From Luteibacter rhizovicinus DSM 16549 (lineage in GTDB: Bacteria > Pseudomonadota > Gammaproteobacteria > Xanthomonadales > Rhodanobacteraceae): 64,000 nucleotides of DNA. Below are positions 4,833 through 45,632 of this stretch, piece after piece. Under the pieces are notes generated by a model that made no database searches, had not been told where the DNA came from, and was given only the letters and a program-made list of their open reading frames with translations. The stretch is taken from contig NZ_CP017480.1 of NCBI RefSeq assembly GCF_001887595.1, forward strand, positions 496,001 through 560,000. The letters are read 5' to 3'. How positions within the stretch are numbered: the first letter of the stretch is position 1; every line of letters starts with the position of its first letter. The position numbers and the translations under genes were made by a program.

Positions 4833-6599
4833 ATGGACGCCTTTCTCGACACCCTGCTTTCCCGTCTTGCGCACGCCTCCGTGCAGGCACTCCTGCTTGC
4901 CACGCTTGTCTATCTTGCCTGCCGCGCCGTGCCTTCGCTCTCGGCCGCGGCACGCAGCACGCTGTGGTGGCTGCTCGGTGCACAGCTGATCGTCGGCATC
5001 GCCTGCCCCACCGTACTCGGCGTACCCCTGCTTCCCGCCACCGATCCGGCACCCGTGATGACCATGACGGCCCTGGGCGATACCGGCGCGGTCGCGGGTT
5101 CCGTGGACACGGGCTGGTCGTTCTCGTGGACGTACGCCCTGCTGGGACTCTGGCTGGTCGCCGTCCTCGCCCAGTGTGCCGTCGCCGCCATCCGTTGGCG
5201 TCGCCTCCACGGCGTAGCCCGCCGCGCCATGCCGCACGACGACGTACGCGTCGACACACTCTGCGCACGCCGCGCACGGGAGCTCGGCTTGCGTCGTTCG
5301 CCGCGCCTCGCCGTATCCGACGAAGTCGAATCGCCGCAAGTCATCGGTCTTTGGCGCCCGACCATCCTGTTGCCATTGGAAGATCGTCTCGGCGACGACG
5401 ACCTCGACATGGCCCTCATGCACGAGTTGGCGCACGTCCGCCGCGGCGATCTCGTGCTCGGCTGGATACCGGCCGTCGCACGCACGCTGTTCTTCTTTCA
5501 CCCACTGGTTCACTTCGCCGTCCGCGAGTACGCCCTGTGCCGGGAGGCGGCCTGCGATGCCCTGGTCCTATCGCGCGGCCGACAGGCGCCGAAGACGTAT
5601 GGACGCCTGCTGCTCCGTCTCGGTGTCGCACCGCATCCCCACCACGCCCTGCCCGGCGCCTCGCCCACCTTCCAGAACCTGAAAAGGAGACTCGACATGC
5701 TAGGTCAAGCCACTGAAGCGCCGCCGCGTGTACTCACCGTCTCACTCGTCCTCGCCATTGCCGCTATCGGCGTGATGCCATGGCGCGTGGTTGCCGCCGA
5801 TAACGGCAGCAAACGCCCGGTCGCCTACGCCTCGGTGACGCCCGCGGCACCCGCGGCACCTGCCGCACCGGTCGGGCCCGTAGCGCCTGCGGCGCCGCCG
5901 GCTCCCGCCTCGCCACCGCAGCCCGCCCCGCCGTCCACACCCGCGGAACCAGCGCTCGACGCGGCGGCGTACGCGGAACCGTTACCGCCTCCGCCCGTGC
6001 CGCCCACACCCGCCGTGGAAGCCGTCGACATCCGCGGGGGACAGCCGTCGCACGCCCTGGTCTTCTTCGGCGACGACGTCAGCGTGATCAATGGCAGCAA
6101 CCACGACATCCGCCGCGCCGAGCTGCAGCGCAACGGCTCGAAAGACTATGTGTGGTTCCGCAACGGCGACCAGGCATGGACGCTTCGCGATCCCGCCTAT
6201 GTGAAGCGCATCACCAGCGCCCTGGCCCGCAGTGCGCAGCCTGCCGACATGGCCGCCATGAGTGCGGACAAGCAGGCCACGCTCGATGGCCAGCAAGCCA
6301 TGCTCAACGAACAGATGGCCAAGCTCGGTGCCCGCCAGGCAGAACTCGCCGTCCGGGAGAGCGATCCTTCCCGGCCCCGCGACCCCGGCGCCTTCGCCGC
6401 GGGCCACGATGCCATTGCTCGCGAACAGTCGGCGATCGCGCAGAAGATGGCGCAGATCGGGCAACAGCGTGCCGAGCAAGGCAAGGTCCAGGCCGAGTGG
6501 GGCCGTCGCCAGGCCGAGGCTGCACGCAAGGCCACGAAGGAGGTGAACGACATCCTCGCCGAGTCCATTCGCAACCACGTCGCCCAGACCTCCCGCTGA
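4833..6599 (+). CDS. M56 family (BlaR1/MecR1-like) membrane metallopeptidase without a penicillin-sensor domain
   Basis: A 588-residue membrane protein pairing with the upstream repressor. Several hydrophobic helices fill the first ~320 residues, and the zinc-protease motif HELAH is at about residues 197-201, with the supporting FFFHPLVHFAVREYALCREAACDALVL segment after it. In BlaR1 the C-terminus is a penicillin-binding sensor domain. Here it is replaced by a long Pro/Ala-rich linker (about residues 335-395), a small globular stretch, and a Gln/Ala-rich predicted coiled coil (about 475-580, with repeats such as QQAMLNEQMAKLGARQAEL). The signal it senses is therefore unlikely to be a beta-lactam bound covalently in the usual way. 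On activation it would be expected to trigger cleavage of the BlaI-like repressor. Confidence 0.9.
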   Translation: MDAFLDTLLSRLAHASVQALLLATLVYLACRAVPSLSAAARSTLWWLLGAQLIVGIACPTVLGVPLLPATDPAPVMTMTALGDTGAVAGSVDTGWSFSWTYALLGLWLVAVLAQCAVAAIRWRRLHGVARRAMPHDDVRVDTLCARRARELGLRRSPRLAVSDEVESPQVIGLWRPTILLPLEDRLGDDDLDMALMHELAHVRRGDLVLGWIPAVARTLFFFHPLVHFAVREYALCREAACDALVLSRGRQAPKTYGRLLLRLGVAPHPHHALPGASPTFQNLKRRLDMLGQATEAPPRVLTVSLVLAIAAIGVMPWRVVAADNGSKRPVAYASVTPAAPAAPAAPVGPVAPAAPPAPASPPQPAPPSTPAEPALDAAAYAEPLPPPPVPPTPAVEAVDIRGGQPSHALVFFGDDVSVINGSNHDIRRAELQRNGSKDYVWFRNGDQAWTLRDPAYVKRITSALARSAQPADMAAMSADKQATLDGQQAMLNEQMAKLGARQAELAVRESDPSRPRDPGAFAAGHDAIAREQSAIAQKMAQIGQQRAEQGKVQAEWGRRQAEAARKATKEVNDILAESIRNHVAQTSR

Positions 6600-40868: not shown

Positions 40869-41936
40869 CTAGATAGCCAGCACGTCGCCGAGCAGTGCTT
40901 GCGCCGTGATCTCCGGCCCGGCGCCTGGACCCTGGATGACGAGCGGCGTCGCGTGATAGCGCGTGGTCGTGAGAGCAAACTGGTTATCCGTGCCAGACAG
41001 ACGCGATGCGGGATGCTCTGGGCCAACTTCGAACAGGCCGACGCGGGCGCGACCGCGCTGATTCAGTCGCGCGAGATAGCGAAGCACCTTGCCGTTCGCG
41101 CTCGCCGCCTCCTGCCGTTGAAGCAGCGGTTTGTCGAGTTCTTCGAGGCGTTCAAGGAAAGACTTCGTATCCAATGCGCGCAGTGCCTCCGGCACCAGAC
41201 TCTCGATTTCCACTTCCTCGCTACCGAGCGAAAAACCCGCGTTGCGAGCAATGATCAGCAGCTTGCGTGCCACGTCTTCGCCAGAAAGATCTGAGCGAGG
41301 ATCGGGCTCGGTGAAACCGAGGCGACGGGCATCGCGCAGCAAGGCCGAGAACGGGCGGCTGCCGTCGTACTGGTTGAACAACCAGGACAACGACCCGGAG
41401 AAAACGCCTTCGAGAGTCAACAGGCTGTCGCCGCACTGGCGCAGGCGACGCAGGGTGGACAGGACCGGCAGGCCGGCTCCGACAGTGGCGGCGTCGCCGT
41501 ACACACTACCGTTAGCCGATGCTGCCTGAAGCGCACGCCAGCCGGAAAGCTGGCCACCGGCAAGCGCCTTGTTTGCCGTCACGACGTGATATCCCGCCGA
41601 AAGCCATTCGGCATGACGGCTCGCCTCGATCGCGCAGGCCGTGGCGTCGATCACCACTTTACGTTCGGCACCCGTCTCGTCCAGCGCGGCGAGCAGCGAC
41701 GCATTCTCGCGCCCATCCCTGCCCTTGCTCAGCCGCTCGGCGATTTCACCCGCGACAACACCGCCGGCGAACGCGTGCTGCCGCTTCGAATTGGCGGCAC
41801 CGACGAGCCGTAGCGAGCGTGCCGCTGGTGTGGCCAACAGCGTCAGCAGCGCGCGGCCCACGACACCCGTGCCCAGCAGTACGACAGCCGTGCGCGGCGG
41901 CACATCGACGATAGGAGCCACGACCACCGCGCTCAT
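40869..41936 (-). CDS. hom: Homoserine dehydrogenase
   Basis: A 355-residue enzyme reducing aspartate semialdehyde to homoserine. The nucleotide site is VVLLGTGVVGRALLTLLAT (about residue 18-36). Substrate and catalytic residues lie in VTANKALAGG, VYGDAATVGAGLPVLSTLRRL and GFTEPDPRSDLSGEDVARKLLIIAR, where the Lys of RKLLI is the catalytic position. It is close to the homoserine dehydrogenase half of MetL/ThrA but stands alone, with no aspartokinase and no ACT domain, so it lacks visible feedback sites. It is last in the metX-metB-hom unit and overlaps metB by 4 bp. It supplies homoserine to metX. Confidence 0.94.
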   Translation of the reverse strand: MSAVVVAPIVDVPPRTAVVLLGTGVVGRALLTLLATPAARSLRLVGAANSKRQHAFAGGVVAGEIAERLSKGRDGRENASLLAALDETGAERKVVIDATACAIEASRHAEWLSAGYHVVTANKALAGGQLSGWRALQAASANGSVYGDAATVGAGLPVLSTLRRLRQCGDSLLTLEGVFSGSLSWLFNQYDGSRPFSALLRDARRLGFTEPDPRSDLSGEDVARKLLIIARNAGFSLGSEEVEIESLVPEALRALDTKSFLERLEELDKPLLQRQEAASANGKVLRYLARLNQRGRARVGLFEVGPEHPASRLSGTDNQFALTTTRYHATPLVIQGPGAGPEITAQALLGDVLAI

Positions 41937-43126
41937 GCGCCGACCTTGCGTTTCGAGGTAACGGAGGCGACCGCTGCGGCACGGGCCAGTGCCGCGTCGA
42001 GGTCGGCCAGCAGGTCATCACCGTCTTCGATGCCAACCGACAGACGCAGAAGACTGTCCGAAATGCCCGCTACCGCGCGAGCCTCGGGAGCCATCGATGC
42101 GTGCGTCATCGTTGCCGGATGAGCGACAAGGCTTTCCACGCCGCCGAGCGACTCGGCCAGCGAAAAATAGCGCAGGCCGTCGACGAAGGCTTCGATCGCG
42201 TCGTTACCGCCGGCGATCTCGAAACTCAGCATCGCGCCGAAGCCCTTCTGCTGACGTTGAGCCAAGGCGTGACCGGGATGCGAGGCAAGACCAGGATAGT
42301 AAATGCGCGAGACCGCATCGTGTTTGTCCAGGCGCTCGGCGATGCGATGGGCATTCTCTTCATGCGCACGCAGGCGGACGGCCAACGTACGCACGCCACG
42401 CAGCGTGAGGAAACTGTCGAACGGTGAACCGGTCAGTCCGTTGCAGTTGCCCCACCACTTCAGCTGTTCGGCGACAGCCTGGTCCGCCGCGATCACGGCA
42501 CCGCCGACGACATCGCTGTGGCCGTTGATGTACTTCGTGGTCGAGTGCACGACGATATCGGCGCCCAGTTTCAGCGGCTGCTGCAGGGCGGGCGAGAGGA
42601 ACGTGTTGTCGACGACGACGAGCGCACCGACCGCATGAGCCGCCTGCGAGACGTGGCGCACGTCGGTGATCCGCAGCAGCGGATTGGACGGCGTTTCGAT
42701 CCAGACCAGCGCCGGCCGGGCAGCCAGGCCATCGGCGAGCGCCGTGGGGTCGGTGAAGTCGACGAAGCGAACGCTGAAACGACCCTTCTTCGCCCAGGCG
42801 TCGAGCAGGCGCCATGTGCCGCCGTAGCAGTCGTGGGCGGCGAGCACGAGGGCTCCGGCCGGAACGAGCTCGAGGGCGAGCGCCACGGCCGACATGCCGC
42901 TACCGGTCACCACCGCACCGGCGCCCTCCTCGAGCTCGGCCAGTGCTTCGCCAAGGAGGTCGCGCGTGGGATTTCCGCTGCGCGAATAATCATAAGCACG
43001 CTTGCGACCGAAACCCTCGAACGCGTAGTTCGTGGACAGGTGCAACGGCGGCACGACGGCGCCGTGCTGCGTGTCGGATTCAATACCGGCGCGCACGGCG
43101 CGGGTACAAAGGCGGGAATCGGTCAT
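41933..43126 (-). CDS. metB: Cystathionine gamma-synthase / trans-sulfuration PLP enzyme
   Basis: A 397-residue Cys/Met-metabolism PLP enzyme. Landmarks are YDYSRSGNPTRDLLGEALAELE, SGMSAVALAL, the PLP-stacking Tyr in HDCYGGT, DNTFLSPALQQPL, and the catalytic Lys in IVVHSTTKYINGHSDVVGG. The C-terminal SLGGVESLVAHPATMTHASM and DSLLRLSVGIEDGDDLLADL are typical of the cystathionine synthases. Context between metX and hom supports condensation of acylated homoserine with cysteine or sulfide in methionine synthesis; direct sulfhydrylation cannot be excluded by sequence. It starts 3 bases after metX. Confidence 0.92.
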   Translation of the reverse strand: MTDSRLCTRAVRAGIESDTQHGAVVPPLHLSTNYAFEGFGRKRAYDYSRSGNPTRDLLGEALAELEEGAGAVVTGSGMSAVALALELVPAGALVLAAHDCYGGTWRLLDAWAKKGRFSVRFVDFTDPTALADGLAARPALVWIETPSNPLLRITDVRHVSQAAHAVGALVVVDNTFLSPALQQPLKLGADIVVHSTTKYINGHSDVVGGAVIAADQAVAEQLKWWGNCNGLTGSPFDSFLTLRGVRTLAVRLRAHEENAHRIAERLDKHDAVSRIYYPGLASHPGHALAQRQQKGFGAMLSFEIAGGNDAIEAFVDGLRYFSLAESLGGVESLVAHPATMTHASMAPEARAVAGISDSLLRLSVGIEDGDDLLADLDAALARAAAVASVTSKRKVGA

Positions 43127-43129
43127 GAC

Positions 43130-44167
43130 TTAGTGGTCTCCGCGACAGTCGTTGAGTGCGTGACGCAGCACGGGAGCGAGCTGCACGGTTTCTTTCAGGA
43201 AGGCGTCGTGGCCATAGGGCGATTCCACGACTTCGAGGGTGGCGGTGCCAGCGAGGCGACGCTGCAGCTCGCACAGGTCGGCCAGGGGAACGAGTCGATC
43301 GGACGGGAAACCGACCAGGGTCGTCGGTGCGGCGACACGCTCCGGCGCCACGTCGTGCAGGTCGATCGATTCGGACAGGGCGAGGAAACGCTCCGCCTCG
43401 AAACGCTCGACGAAACGGCGCCCGGCGTGCTCGAGGTAATCCTCCACCGGGAAGTGGAAGCGACCGTCGCGCAGCTCCGGACCGGCAGCGAAACGACGCG
43501 AGAACTCTTCGCTGCCCCGGTACGTCGTCATGGCCAGCTGCCGTGCGAGGGCGAGTGCCTCGTCCGTGCGGCCTGACTCCACGCCGAGCCGGACGATGCT
43601 GCGCTGGATCGAGCGCTGTGCGGTGGAGAGCGGATGCGGACGGTGGGCGCCTGCAAGAAGGACGAGCGACCTGAGCTTGTCCGGGTGATTCGCCGCGAAC
43701 GCGAGACCGGTCATCGCGCCGTAGGACGAGCCAACGAAGGCGTGCACGCGACCGATGCCCAACTCGTCGACGAGTGCCGCCAGCGCCGCCGCCTGGTCTT
43801 CGCTCGAGACCGAGTCGGCGCCGCCGAGGTCGGCCGGCACCAGCCAGTCGATCGACAGCACGCGGTAATGATCGAGGTCGAGGGCAGCGCCACGACCGAC
43901 CAGCTCTTGCCACCAGCCGCTGGACCGCTCCCGACCGGTGCAGACATCGCGGTCGGCGGAGATACCGCCCTGCACGATGATCGTCGGTGCGTGCGCCGCG
44001 CCACACCACAGGTAGTGGACGTCCACCTGGACCGCGTCGCTGCCGTACTTCGGCGTGAACGAGACCTGGCGGGTGCCGCGCTGCTCGGTGAGATCGGCCG
44101 CGGTGCGCGGCGCGGGAGAGACGACCGCTTCGGTGAGGGAGATCACGATGTGTGGCTCTGCTGACAT
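43130..44167 (-). CDS. metX: MetX-type homoserine O-acyltransferase
   Basis: A 345-residue alpha/beta hydrolase-fold acyltransferase that activates homoserine, with succinyl-CoA or acetyl-CoA. The first GG motif is VQGGISADRDV (about residue 66), the nucleophile elbow is GSSYG (Ser148) instead of the more usual GGSMGG, and the acid and His are expected in GFPSDRLVPL and ESPYGHDAFLKE (His about 320). Xanthomonadales MetX proteins of this short type prefer succinyl-CoA, so this may be a homoserine O-succinyltransferase; that is inference. SD is AGGAA about 8 bases before the ATG. It is the first gene of the operon under the SAM-I riboswitch. Confidence 0.92.
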   Translation of the reverse strand: MSAEPHIVISLTEAVVSPAPRTAADLTEQRGTRQVSFTPKYGSDAVQVDVHYLWCGAAHAPTIIVQGGISADRDVCTGRERSSGWWQELVGRGAALDLDHYRVLSIDWLVPADLGGADSVSSEDQAAALAALVDELGIGRVHAFVGSSYGAMTGLAFAANHPDKLRSLVLLAGAHRPHPLSTAQRSIQRSIVRLGVESGRTDEALALARQLAMTTYRGSEEFSRRFAAGPELRDGRFHFPVEDYLEHAGRRFVERFEAERFLALSESIDLHDVAPERVAAPTTLVGFPSDRLVPLADLCELQRRLAGTATLEVVESPYGHDAFLKETVQLAPVLRHALNDCRGDH

Positions 44168-44208: not shown

Positions 44209-44262
44209 GTCAGTCGGAGGTGCCCTGCAGCGGATGCGCGAACGCATGCCCGCTTAGGACAT

Positions 44263-44372
44263 CCCATCTATCGGCTGACGTGAAGACACGCCCCGCAGGA
44301 GTTGGCACCGTCGCGGAAATCCGCAGGTTGCCCCGGCTTCAAAGGGCCTGTCCCTCAGCCGGTCTCGATGAG
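44263..44372 (-). promoter_or_regulatory. SAM-I (S-box) riboswitch upstream of metX
   Basis: The minus-strand leader matches the S-box consensus in order. P1 is CTCATC (44372-44367) paired with GATGGG (44268-44263). Then come GAGACCGGCTGAGGGACAGG, CCCTTTGAAGCCGGGGCAACC split over the P2/P3 core, the conserved GGTGCCAACTCCTGC, and a P4 hairpin CGTG-TCTT-CACG. These are the SAM-contacting positions of the family. It lies 95 bases before the metX ATG and should turn the metX-metB-hom unit off when S-adenosylmethionine is plentiful. Confidence 0.95.
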
Positions 44373-44380
44373 TGAAACCG

Positions 44381-44409
44381 ACGATACGCCCGGACCCGAG
44401 ACCTGTCAA
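44381..44409 (-). promoter_or_regulatory. Sigma70 promoter of the metX operon
   Basis: Minus strand TTGACA (44409-44404), a spacer of exactly 17 bases, then TATCGT (44386-44381). Initiation about seven bases on would fall near 44374, right at the first base of riboswitch helix P1, which supports the assignment. Confidence 0.75.
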
Positions 44410-44410
44410 C

Positions 44411-44442
44411 AGCCGTTTAGACGTCCAGATGTCCAGAAGGCT
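44411..44442. promoter_or_regulatory. Four tandem MetJ-type met boxes
   Basis: Read on the plus strand the 32 bases divide into four contiguous octamers, AGCCGTTT / AGACGTCC / AGATGTCC / AGAAGGCT. Against the met box AGACGTCT they match 6, 7, 6 and 6 of 8. MetJ binds arrays of such octamers cooperatively with SAM as corepressor. The array ends one base from the -35 hexamer of the metX promoter. A metJ gene is not in this window, so the regulator is inferred. Confidence 0.65.
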
Positions 44443-44480
44443 GTTCGCATGAACACTGCGAGTAGGCCGCAGAAGCCCTT

Positions 44481-44552
44481 GTAGGAGCCGATTCATCGGC
44501 GATAGGGCGTGGCTACGTAGACGGGCCTTATCGCCGATGAATCGGCTCCTAC
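44481..44552. repeat. REP-like inverted pair, type A, short spacer
   Basis: GTAGGAGCCGATTCATCGGC at 44481 and its exact reverse complement ending at 44552 enclose about 27 bases. This forms a long imperfect hairpin just upstream of cysK, between the divergent metX promoter and the cysK start. Confidence 0.9.
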
Positions 44553-44603
44553 ATAGAGCGCGACCCACCGACAACGACCCCCGGAAGGCGCTAGCATTGG
44601 CCT

Positions 44604-45632
44604 ATGACCACCTACGCCAGCTTCGCCGCCGCCGTCGGCAACACGCCCCTCCTCCGCCTGCGGCATGCCTCGGAGGCCACCGGCTGCGAGATCCTGGGCA
44701 AGGCCGAATTCCTGAATCCGGGCGGCTCGGTCAAGGACCGCACGGCGCTCGGCCTGCTCGAGGATGCCGAGCGGCAGGGCCTGCTGCGCCCCGGCGCCAC
44801 CCTGGTCGAGGGCACGGCTGGCAATACCGGCATCGGCCTGGCCCTGCTGGGTGCCAGCCGCGGATACCGCACCCTGGTGGTCATGCCTGACACCCAGAGC
44901 CGGGAAAAGATCGACGCGCTTCACGTCGCCGGTGCCCAGGTCCGCCTCGTCCCCGTGGTTCCGTTCACGGATCCCGGCCACTACGCGCGGACCGCCCGCC
45001 GGCTGGCCGAGGAAATGAACGCGACGGACCCCGGCAGCGCCTGGTTCGCCAATCAGTTCGACAACACCGCCAATCGCGACTGGCACGAGGCCCATACCGG
45101 CCGGGAGATCTGGGAGCAGACCAGCGGCCAGATCGACGGCTTCGTCTGCGCCGCCGGCACCGGGGGCACCATTGCCGGCGTGGGCCGGGCCCTGAAGCGC
45201 CACCGCCCCGATATCCGGATCGCGCTGGCCGATCCCGCGGGCTCGATCTTCGCCCGCTACGTTCAAACGGGCGAGCTGGTCGGTGAAGGCAGCTCGATCA
45301 GCGAGGGCATCGGCAACAGCCGTATCACCGCCAATTTCGAGGGAGCGCCGATCGACGTCGCTTACTCCATCCCGGACGACGAGTCGGTCCCCGTGCTCCA
45401 CGACCTGCTCCGCCGCGAGGGTTACTGCGTCGGCGGCTCCAGCGGCGTGAACGTGGCCGGCGCCCTGCGGCTGGCCCGCGAACTGGGCCCCGGCCACACC
45501 ATCGTCACCGTCCTTTGCGACGGCGGCATGCGCTACCAGGCCAAGCTGTTCAATCCGGACTTCCTGCGCAGCAAGGGCATCCCCGTGCCGACGTGGCTGG
45601 ACGAGGCCTTTCCGGCCGCCGCGGACCGATAG
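44604..45632 (+). CDS. cysK: Cysteine synthase (O-acetylserine sulfhydrylase family)
   Basis: A 342-residue PLP enzyme making cysteine from O-acetylserine and sulfide. The catalytic Lys is in LNPGGSVKDRTAL (about residue 40), the phosphate loop is GTAGNTGIGLAL, and the second signature is AGTGGTIAGVGRALK. The C-terminal half includes EGIGNSR and GYCVGGSSGVNVAGALRLAREL. It is slightly longer than E. coli CysK and has inserts (NQFDNTANRDWHEAHTGREIWEQ) that resemble CysK/CBS-like proteins of GC-rich bacteria. It is divergent from the metX operon and shares the same short REP-filled intergenic stretch. Cystathionine beta-synthase activity cannot be excluded. Confidence 0.9.
   Translation: MTTYASFAAAVGNTPLLRLRHASEATGCEILGKAEFLNPGGSVKDRTALGLLEDAERQGLLRPGATLVEGTAGNTGIGLALLGASRGYRTLVVMPDTQSREKIDALHVAGAQVRLVPVVPFTDPGHYARTARRLAEEMNATDPGSAWFANQFDNTANRDWHEAHTGREIWEQTSGQIDGFVCAAGTGGTIAGVGRALKRHRPDIRIALADPAGSIFARYVQTGELVGEGSSISEGIGNSRITANFEGAPIDVAYSIPDDESVPVLHDLLRREGYCVGGSSGVNVAGALRLARELGPGHTIVTVLCDGGMRYQAKLFNPDFLRSKGIPVPTWLDEAFPAAADR

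Follow-up and report, generated by a model that had tools for sequence, protein, structure and literature searches.

Predicted stacking of an H1-tailed MetJ repressor and a SAM-I riboswitch on the metX-metB-hom operon of Luteibacter and other Rhodanobacteraceae

The metX-metB-hom operon of Luteibacter rhizovicinus is, judging from sequence comparison, very probably repressed at two successive steps, by MetJ-SAM at the promoter and by a SAM-I riboswitch in the transcript, with a MetJ that carries a histone-H1-like tail and an operator that appears to have taken the slot of a SamR-like site. Repressor proteins and riboswitches that sense SAM are commonly regarded as alternatives found in different lineages. 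The Rhodanobacteraceae would stack both SAM controls on one promoter and its transcript, and their relatives appear to hold the site of another protein in the same slot. This arrangement offers a natural comparison for asking why one metabolite is measured twice on one operon, be it for range, speed or noise, and how one transcriptional regulator gives way to another above an RNA control that is kept.

In the window, which is the whole 64-kb stretch of DNA that was analysed, the putative operator consists of four contiguous met boxes on the minus strand, AGCCTTCT GGACATCT GGACGTCT AAACGGCT, matching AGACGTCT at 6, 6, 7 and 6 of 8 positions. Read on the minus strand from 44442, the four boxes are followed by one G, the −35 element TTGACA (44404-44409), a 17-base spacer and the −10 element TATCGT (44381-44386). 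The first-pass annotation had described four octamers with 6-7 of 8 matches, in one phase, without gaps and one base from the −35 element, and reading from 44442 to 44411 confirmed this. Its coordinates, 44381-44442, cover the array plus the promoter, while the array alone occupies 44411-44442.

The array is the best four-octamer position in the window with 25/32 matches, and the next non-overlapping position has 18. A control octamer of the same composition reached 20/32 at its best position, which overlaps the operator array. In 200 simulations of a 64-kb sequence that kept the dinucleotide frequencies, the top score was 22/32, so that none reached the score of the array. We also applied the met-box matrix and thresholds given in section 21 of PMC3228920, which call for at least two adjacent in-phase 8-bp boxes, each with at least 1/4 and together with at least 1x the consensus score. 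The four boxes scored 5.5, 9.0, 10.4 and 7.6 bits, and the array passes with a total of 32.5 bits against the 12.58 needed. The rest of the window contains one further passing site (15.6 bits at 5593), and the control matrix found one site in the window (16.2 bits).

At the scale of the genome these thresholds are not strict: 7 of the 11 other two-box sites scored in the Luteibacter genome pass, with 15.6-25.6 bits, and none of the 11 equals the metX array. The search for other arrays, which the first-pass annotation had proposed as a check, returned 13 two-box sites at no more than 3 mismatches, two of them inside the metX array, and 5 sites for the reversed pattern. The genes beside the other two-box sites, when read, gave no clear regulon. 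None of these other sites has RTTGAC after the boxes; with RTTGAC added to the two boxes, again at no more than 3 mismatches, the metX array is the single occurrence in the 4.77-Mb genome and the reversed control has none. Across the family, two boxes plus RTTGAC were found at least once in 52 of 59 genomes, and the reversed control gave 0 across all 59. By its score, the presence of metJ and its conservation in the family, the prediction that the four boxes form a MetJ operator is well supported.

The aptamer of a SAM-I (S-box) riboswitch starts six bases after TATCGT and spans 44261-44374 on the minus strand (RF00162, 77.3 bits, gathering score 44.4, model positions 1-108). The same strand then encodes metX of the homoserine O-succinyltransferase type (43130-44167; NF006449, 378 bits, cut-off 296), a metB-like gene for a cystathionine gamma-synthase / O-succinylhomoserine (thiol)-lyase (41933-43126; TIGR02080, 605.9 bits, cut-off 504.55) and the homoserine dehydrogenase gene hom (40869-41936; PF00742, 144.1 bits, cut-off 22.9). 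The metB-like gene scored 638.1 bits against NF006450, which is under the cut-off of 730. The earlier claim that the metX transcript begins with a SAM-I riboswitch is therefore borne out by the RF00162 match at 44374-44261, ahead of metX-metB-hom. In a single-sequence fold of the leader alone, used to look for an expression platform in the form of a sequestered ribosome-binding site or a terminator, the z-score was −1.38, and 17 of 200 shuffles folded equally well.

Divergent from metX, a cysteine synthase gene lies on the plus strand (44604-45632; NF007989, 510.7 bits, cut-off 387). Between it and the operator we noticed a REP-like inverted repeat with TGTAGGAGCCGATTCATCGGCGA arms at 44480-44553 of the window, and a similar sequence occurs near a two-box site in another locus (L002). 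In one genome (G205) the array and promoter occur a second time (L407:1501-1522), ~1.2 kb from the metX copy and past the cysteine synthase gene, which looks like a partial duplication.

We propose that at high SAM, MetJ-SAM dimers would bind the neighbouring boxes cooperatively and occupy the DNA as far as the −35 element, which would lower initiation at the metX promoter. In the residual transcripts the SAM-I aptamer would bind SAM, most likely hiding the ribosome-binding site and thus preventing translation, and at low SAM both controls would be released. The regulator would be a MetJ whose C-terminus is replaced by an H1-like Lys/Ala tail. That MetJ binds here, responds to SAM and represses rather than activates metX is expected by analogy with E. 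coli MetJ, and the translational mode of the SAM-I control is presumed from Xanthomonas, for which it is described in PMC7270179.

The position of the array, upstream of the −35 element where activators also bind, counts against repression. MetJ on the array might instead activate or tune the promoter, perhaps with the H1-like tail altering the local DNA, and leave SAM repression to the riboswitch. The boxes would lie at about −37 to −68, upstream of the core promoter and not over it, if transcription starts near 44374, the presumed start. PMC6230763 describes the met operon of Xanthomonas as transcribed constitutively, with its regulation at translation. Against this stand the MetJ repression ratios in PMC3228920, which range from none or weak to strong and, in the part of that study considered here, include no activation, as well as the near-consensus TTGACA and 17-base spacer, which should have no obvious need of an activator. 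We consider activation or tuning improbable, and repression by MetJ-SAM remains the reading that we follow below.

The conservation of the array was examined in a family sample of 59 genomes from 26 genera (f1, taken as Rhodanobacteraceae), all 59 of which contain both SAM-I and MetJ. In every one of them an array at the SAM-I promoter exceeds the published thresholds, whereas the control matrix passes in 0/59. The passing run comprises four boxes in 14 genomes, three in 26 and two in 19, and TTGAC follows one base past the run in 51 genomes but not in the other 8. By plain matching over three boxes, 58/59 genomes reach at least 16/24 and one has 15, which is also the maximum of the control. 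Among the named loci, many of which belong to the same organisms as the genome sample, 76 of 78 reach at least 16/24 (L173 has 15 and L193 has 12) and the control 0; the 78 are the 80 loci minus L179 and L191, which were not evaluable. The comparison of upstream regions proposed with the first-pass annotation shows the 8-bp phase to be kept in relatives (59/59 genomes, 76/78 loci), while the number of four boxes does not hold and varies from 2 to 4. Of the two findings that would have refuted that annotation, a genome lacking metJ and a periodicity lost in relatives, neither was obtained.

Within the order sample, an array over SAM-I is seen in this family only. In this sample of 200 genomes, SAM-I was found in 127 and MetJ in 53; the filters of the riboswitch searches across the order were stricter and miss weak matches. 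From the 93 genomes with SAM-I outside the family came 98 regions, or 97 after one was dropped because its riboswitch lies at a contig end (G147). None of these 97 evaluable promoters passes the published thresholds, and their maximum in three-box matching is 14/24 for the met box and the same for the control. Met boxes as a general trait of SAM-I promoters in the order are rejected by this count. MetJ and SAM-I hardly meet outside the family in this sample, because only one of the 19 MetJ genomes outside it also has SAM-I (G113); both SAM-I promoters of that genome are without a met-box array. The MetJ array over SAM-I is, on these sequences, restricted to Rhodanobacteraceae within the sampled order. 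In one genus of another family (g37 of f9), MetJ occurs in 12 sampled genomes, SAM-I in 4 others and both in none.

The slot occupied by the array holds a different site in related families. In f2, probably the Xanthomonadaceae, a palindrome of the type ATCGCTTNATCCGNATNAAGNGAT occupies the 24 bases directly upstream of the −35 element in 33/33 promoters. PMC4239095 describes the SamR site of Xanthomonadales as a 24-bp palindrome with ATC-10 nt-GAT, which the f2 palindrome fits, and we regard it as a SamR-like site. A matrix was built from the 33 f2 promoters, which as the training set all score at least 25.6 bits, and a cut of >12 bits was applied. Above this cut, SamR-like sites are present in f3 (3/3), f4 (7/7), f5 (3/6), f6 (1/1) and f9 (1/12), and in none of the promoters of f8 (0/19), f10 (0/15) and f11 (0/1). 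The Rhodanobacteraceae also have none at their metX promoters (0/59), and a SamR-like site at the Luteibacter metX promoter is thereby rejected. Accordingly, where Luteibacter has the MetJ array, the probable Xanthomonadaceae have a SamR-like site. The simplest reading of this distribution is that the MetJ array displaced a SamR site at metX in the ancestor of the family and that the riboswitch was retained; the direction of the exchange, from SamR to MetJ, is what we infer from it.

The Luteibacter genome still contains a samR-like gene (ArsR-type HTH and methyltransferase domains) directly before metH, as in f2, with a SamR-like site of 29.1 bits just upstream of the gene itself. Its presence gives some room to the idea that another protein binds the array, or that the array is an upstream promoter element merely resembling met boxes. 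We consider this very unlikely, since the 8-bp phase fits the MetJ matrix in 59/59 MetJ-bearing genomes and in 0/97 SAM-I promoters of other families, and the family's metX promoters have no SamR-like site above the cut. The notion of a chance octamer run draws on the individual degeneracy of the boxes (6-7 of 8) and on the 7/11 other sites of the genome that pass the thresholds, but it is rejected as next to impossible by the 0/200 simulated windows that reach the score and by the conservation of the array across the family.

The operator reading presupposed that MetJ exists in this organism, a condition attached to the first-pass annotation, and the genome does contain a single metJ (L001:1492-2145) with an in-frame H1-like Lys/Ala tail. 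Its product exceeds the cut-offs of both PF01340 (130.8 and 128.4 bits, cut-off 25) and the NCBIfam MetJ equivalog NF003622 (134.2 bits, cut-off 110), and its MetJ domain aligns with E. coli MetJ at E 1.4e-32, with 55 of 74 residues identical. Unlike the usual MetJ of ~105 aa, the Luteibacter protein has 217 aa and lacks the usual C-terminal segment. The PF01340 match ends at residue 88, and in residues 79-217 Lys and Ala each make up about a third. Position 1 of the NCBIfam histone-H1-like model falls on MetJ residue 79, where the alignment starts, but its 24.1 bits are under the cut-off of 80, and Pfam at E 0.001 reports only MetJ on the 217-aa protein.

The Lys/Ala tail is present in all 29 extracted MetJ proteins of the family. 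Among the best 120 of 885 homologues, a list biased toward full-length relatives, most are pre-annotated with PF07382, an H1-like family, and the named ones are listed as Met regulators or MetJ. In all 120 of them, a Met separated from EEL by two or three residues precedes the Lys/Ala tail. The first Arg of RRQ in the motif DERTRRQ, which we take to be the SAM contact at position 42 of E. coli MetJ, is kept in Luteibacter, and it is H, Y or E in 6 of the 29 family sequences. In the loci L107-L112, from three genera, an H, Y or E at this Arg goes along with L at position 39, and the operator is kept there.

In the 29 metJ genes extracted from the 59 family genomes (L026, L292 and L293 were left out), the last 15 codons of the MetJ domain have a mean codon identity of 0.90, compared to 0.51 for the 42 others (p 3e-7, which is post hoc because the boundary of the block was picked after viewing the per-codon table). 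Within this block AGA is found in 28/28 genes and GAG GAG in 29/29, the latter 9-12 bases before the internal ATG. A scan of 33 loci, lying outside the family or containing other H1-like genes, showed no such internal block except in Luteibacter metJ itself. The synonymously constrained codons together with the ATG suggest ribosome binding within metJ and translation of a free H1-like protein from there, although the stretch may be some other constrained RNA or DNA element. A tentative, if quite possible, extension is that metJ of Rhodanobacteraceae makes two products: a full-length MetJ-histone chimera whose H1-like, DNA-compacting tail would be anchored at met operators, and, from the conserved internal start (Shine-Dalgarno-like GAGGAG plus ATG), a separate H1-like protein of the nucleoid, so that SAM sensing and nucleoid structure would derive from one gene whose regulator would have replaced SamR above the retained SAM-I riboswitch. 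An H1-tailed MetJ, perhaps with its tail also produced on its own, would tie a specific repressor of metabolism to nucleoid proteins.

The known MetJ regulons of other gammaproteobacterial orders, as described in PMC3228920 and PMC4239095, share with Luteibacter the in-phase 8-bp boxes, a MetJ-family protein and a methionine operon as target, and metJ itself is a target in part of their genera, as it appears to be in part of the Rhodanobacteraceae. The Rhodanobacteraceae differ in the operator over a SAM riboswitch, the H1-like tail and a probable TonB-receptor-like target. PMC4239095 lists MetJ in 0/4 Xanthomonadales. The met operon of Xanthomonas campestris (PMC6230763, PMC7270179) has the same aptamer family and a three-gene methionine operon as in Luteibacter; in contrast to Luteibacter with its metJ, metJ is reported missing there and the promoter unresponsive to methionine (PMC6230763). 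This unresponsive promoter fits a lineage without MetJ, but it is also a caution that a site in this slot may be of no consequence. According to the introduction of PMC7270179, many Gram-negatives, Xanthomonas among them, appear to have conserved the MetR/MetJ system of E. coli, so the passages considered in these two papers disagree on metJ in Xanthomonas.

Another parallel is btuB of Yersinia and others, where met boxes lie ahead of a cobalamin riboswitch (PMC3228920), much like the riboswitch leader at metX; btuB responds to two ligands, SAM and cobalamin, whereas both controls of Luteibacter metX should sense SAM. Among the genes of that study, it is suggested there, only btuB has met boxes plus a riboswitch. 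At E. coli mntP (PMC11647493) one ligand is sensed on a single gene by a protein, MntR, and an RNA, the Mn2+ riboswitch, as we propose for metX, although manganese activates mntP and SAM would repress metX. PMC9373788 describes SAM-II in an organism without MetJ. Among the best matches in the open-licence PMC literature, we found no report of a MetJ operator paired with a SAM riboswitch and none of a MetJ fused to an H1 tail, and in the same literature we found no text naming MetJ together with Luteibacter or with Dyella.

In addition to metX, a TonB-dependent receptor and, mostly outside Luteibacter, metJ itself are probable MetJ targets by their upstream sequences. A passing array with RTTGAC precedes a TonB-receptor-like gene in 13 genomes (loci L317, L320, L363, L368, L390, L402-L406 and L408-L410), and a fourteenth such locus, L366, has a longer gap. 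Of the 13, 11 have an aspS-like sequence in the same locus. Pfam confirmed the TonB plug domain in each of the three loci tested (L363, L368, L402), and aspS was confirmed in the one tested (L402); the other assignments are by reading. A site scoring 16/24 or more lies within the 500 bases upstream of the best receptor match in 6 of 8 Luteibacter genomes; in L. rhizovicinus this site has two boxes and 17.5 bits, and one genome (G120) shows the full array-RTTGAC geometry. Upstream of metJ, a passing array lies within 300 bases in 16 of 29 genes (control 0/29), with 15/20 outside Luteibacter, 1/9 inside and none at metJ of L. rhizovicinus. The arrays at the TonB-receptor loci and upstream of metJ would therefore point to a small MetJ regulon.

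Two other kinds of site were noticed. A three-box site of 25.6 bits in the L. rhizovicinus genome (L007:1493-1516) precedes a 2-isopropylmalate synthase gene (NF002086, 596.8 bits), whose start is ~310 bases away. In five genera (L002:1501-1516, L304, L362, L367 and L411), a small lipoprotein operon has a two-box met site at its 3′ end, where the site adjoins a terminator-like hairpin and not a promoter.
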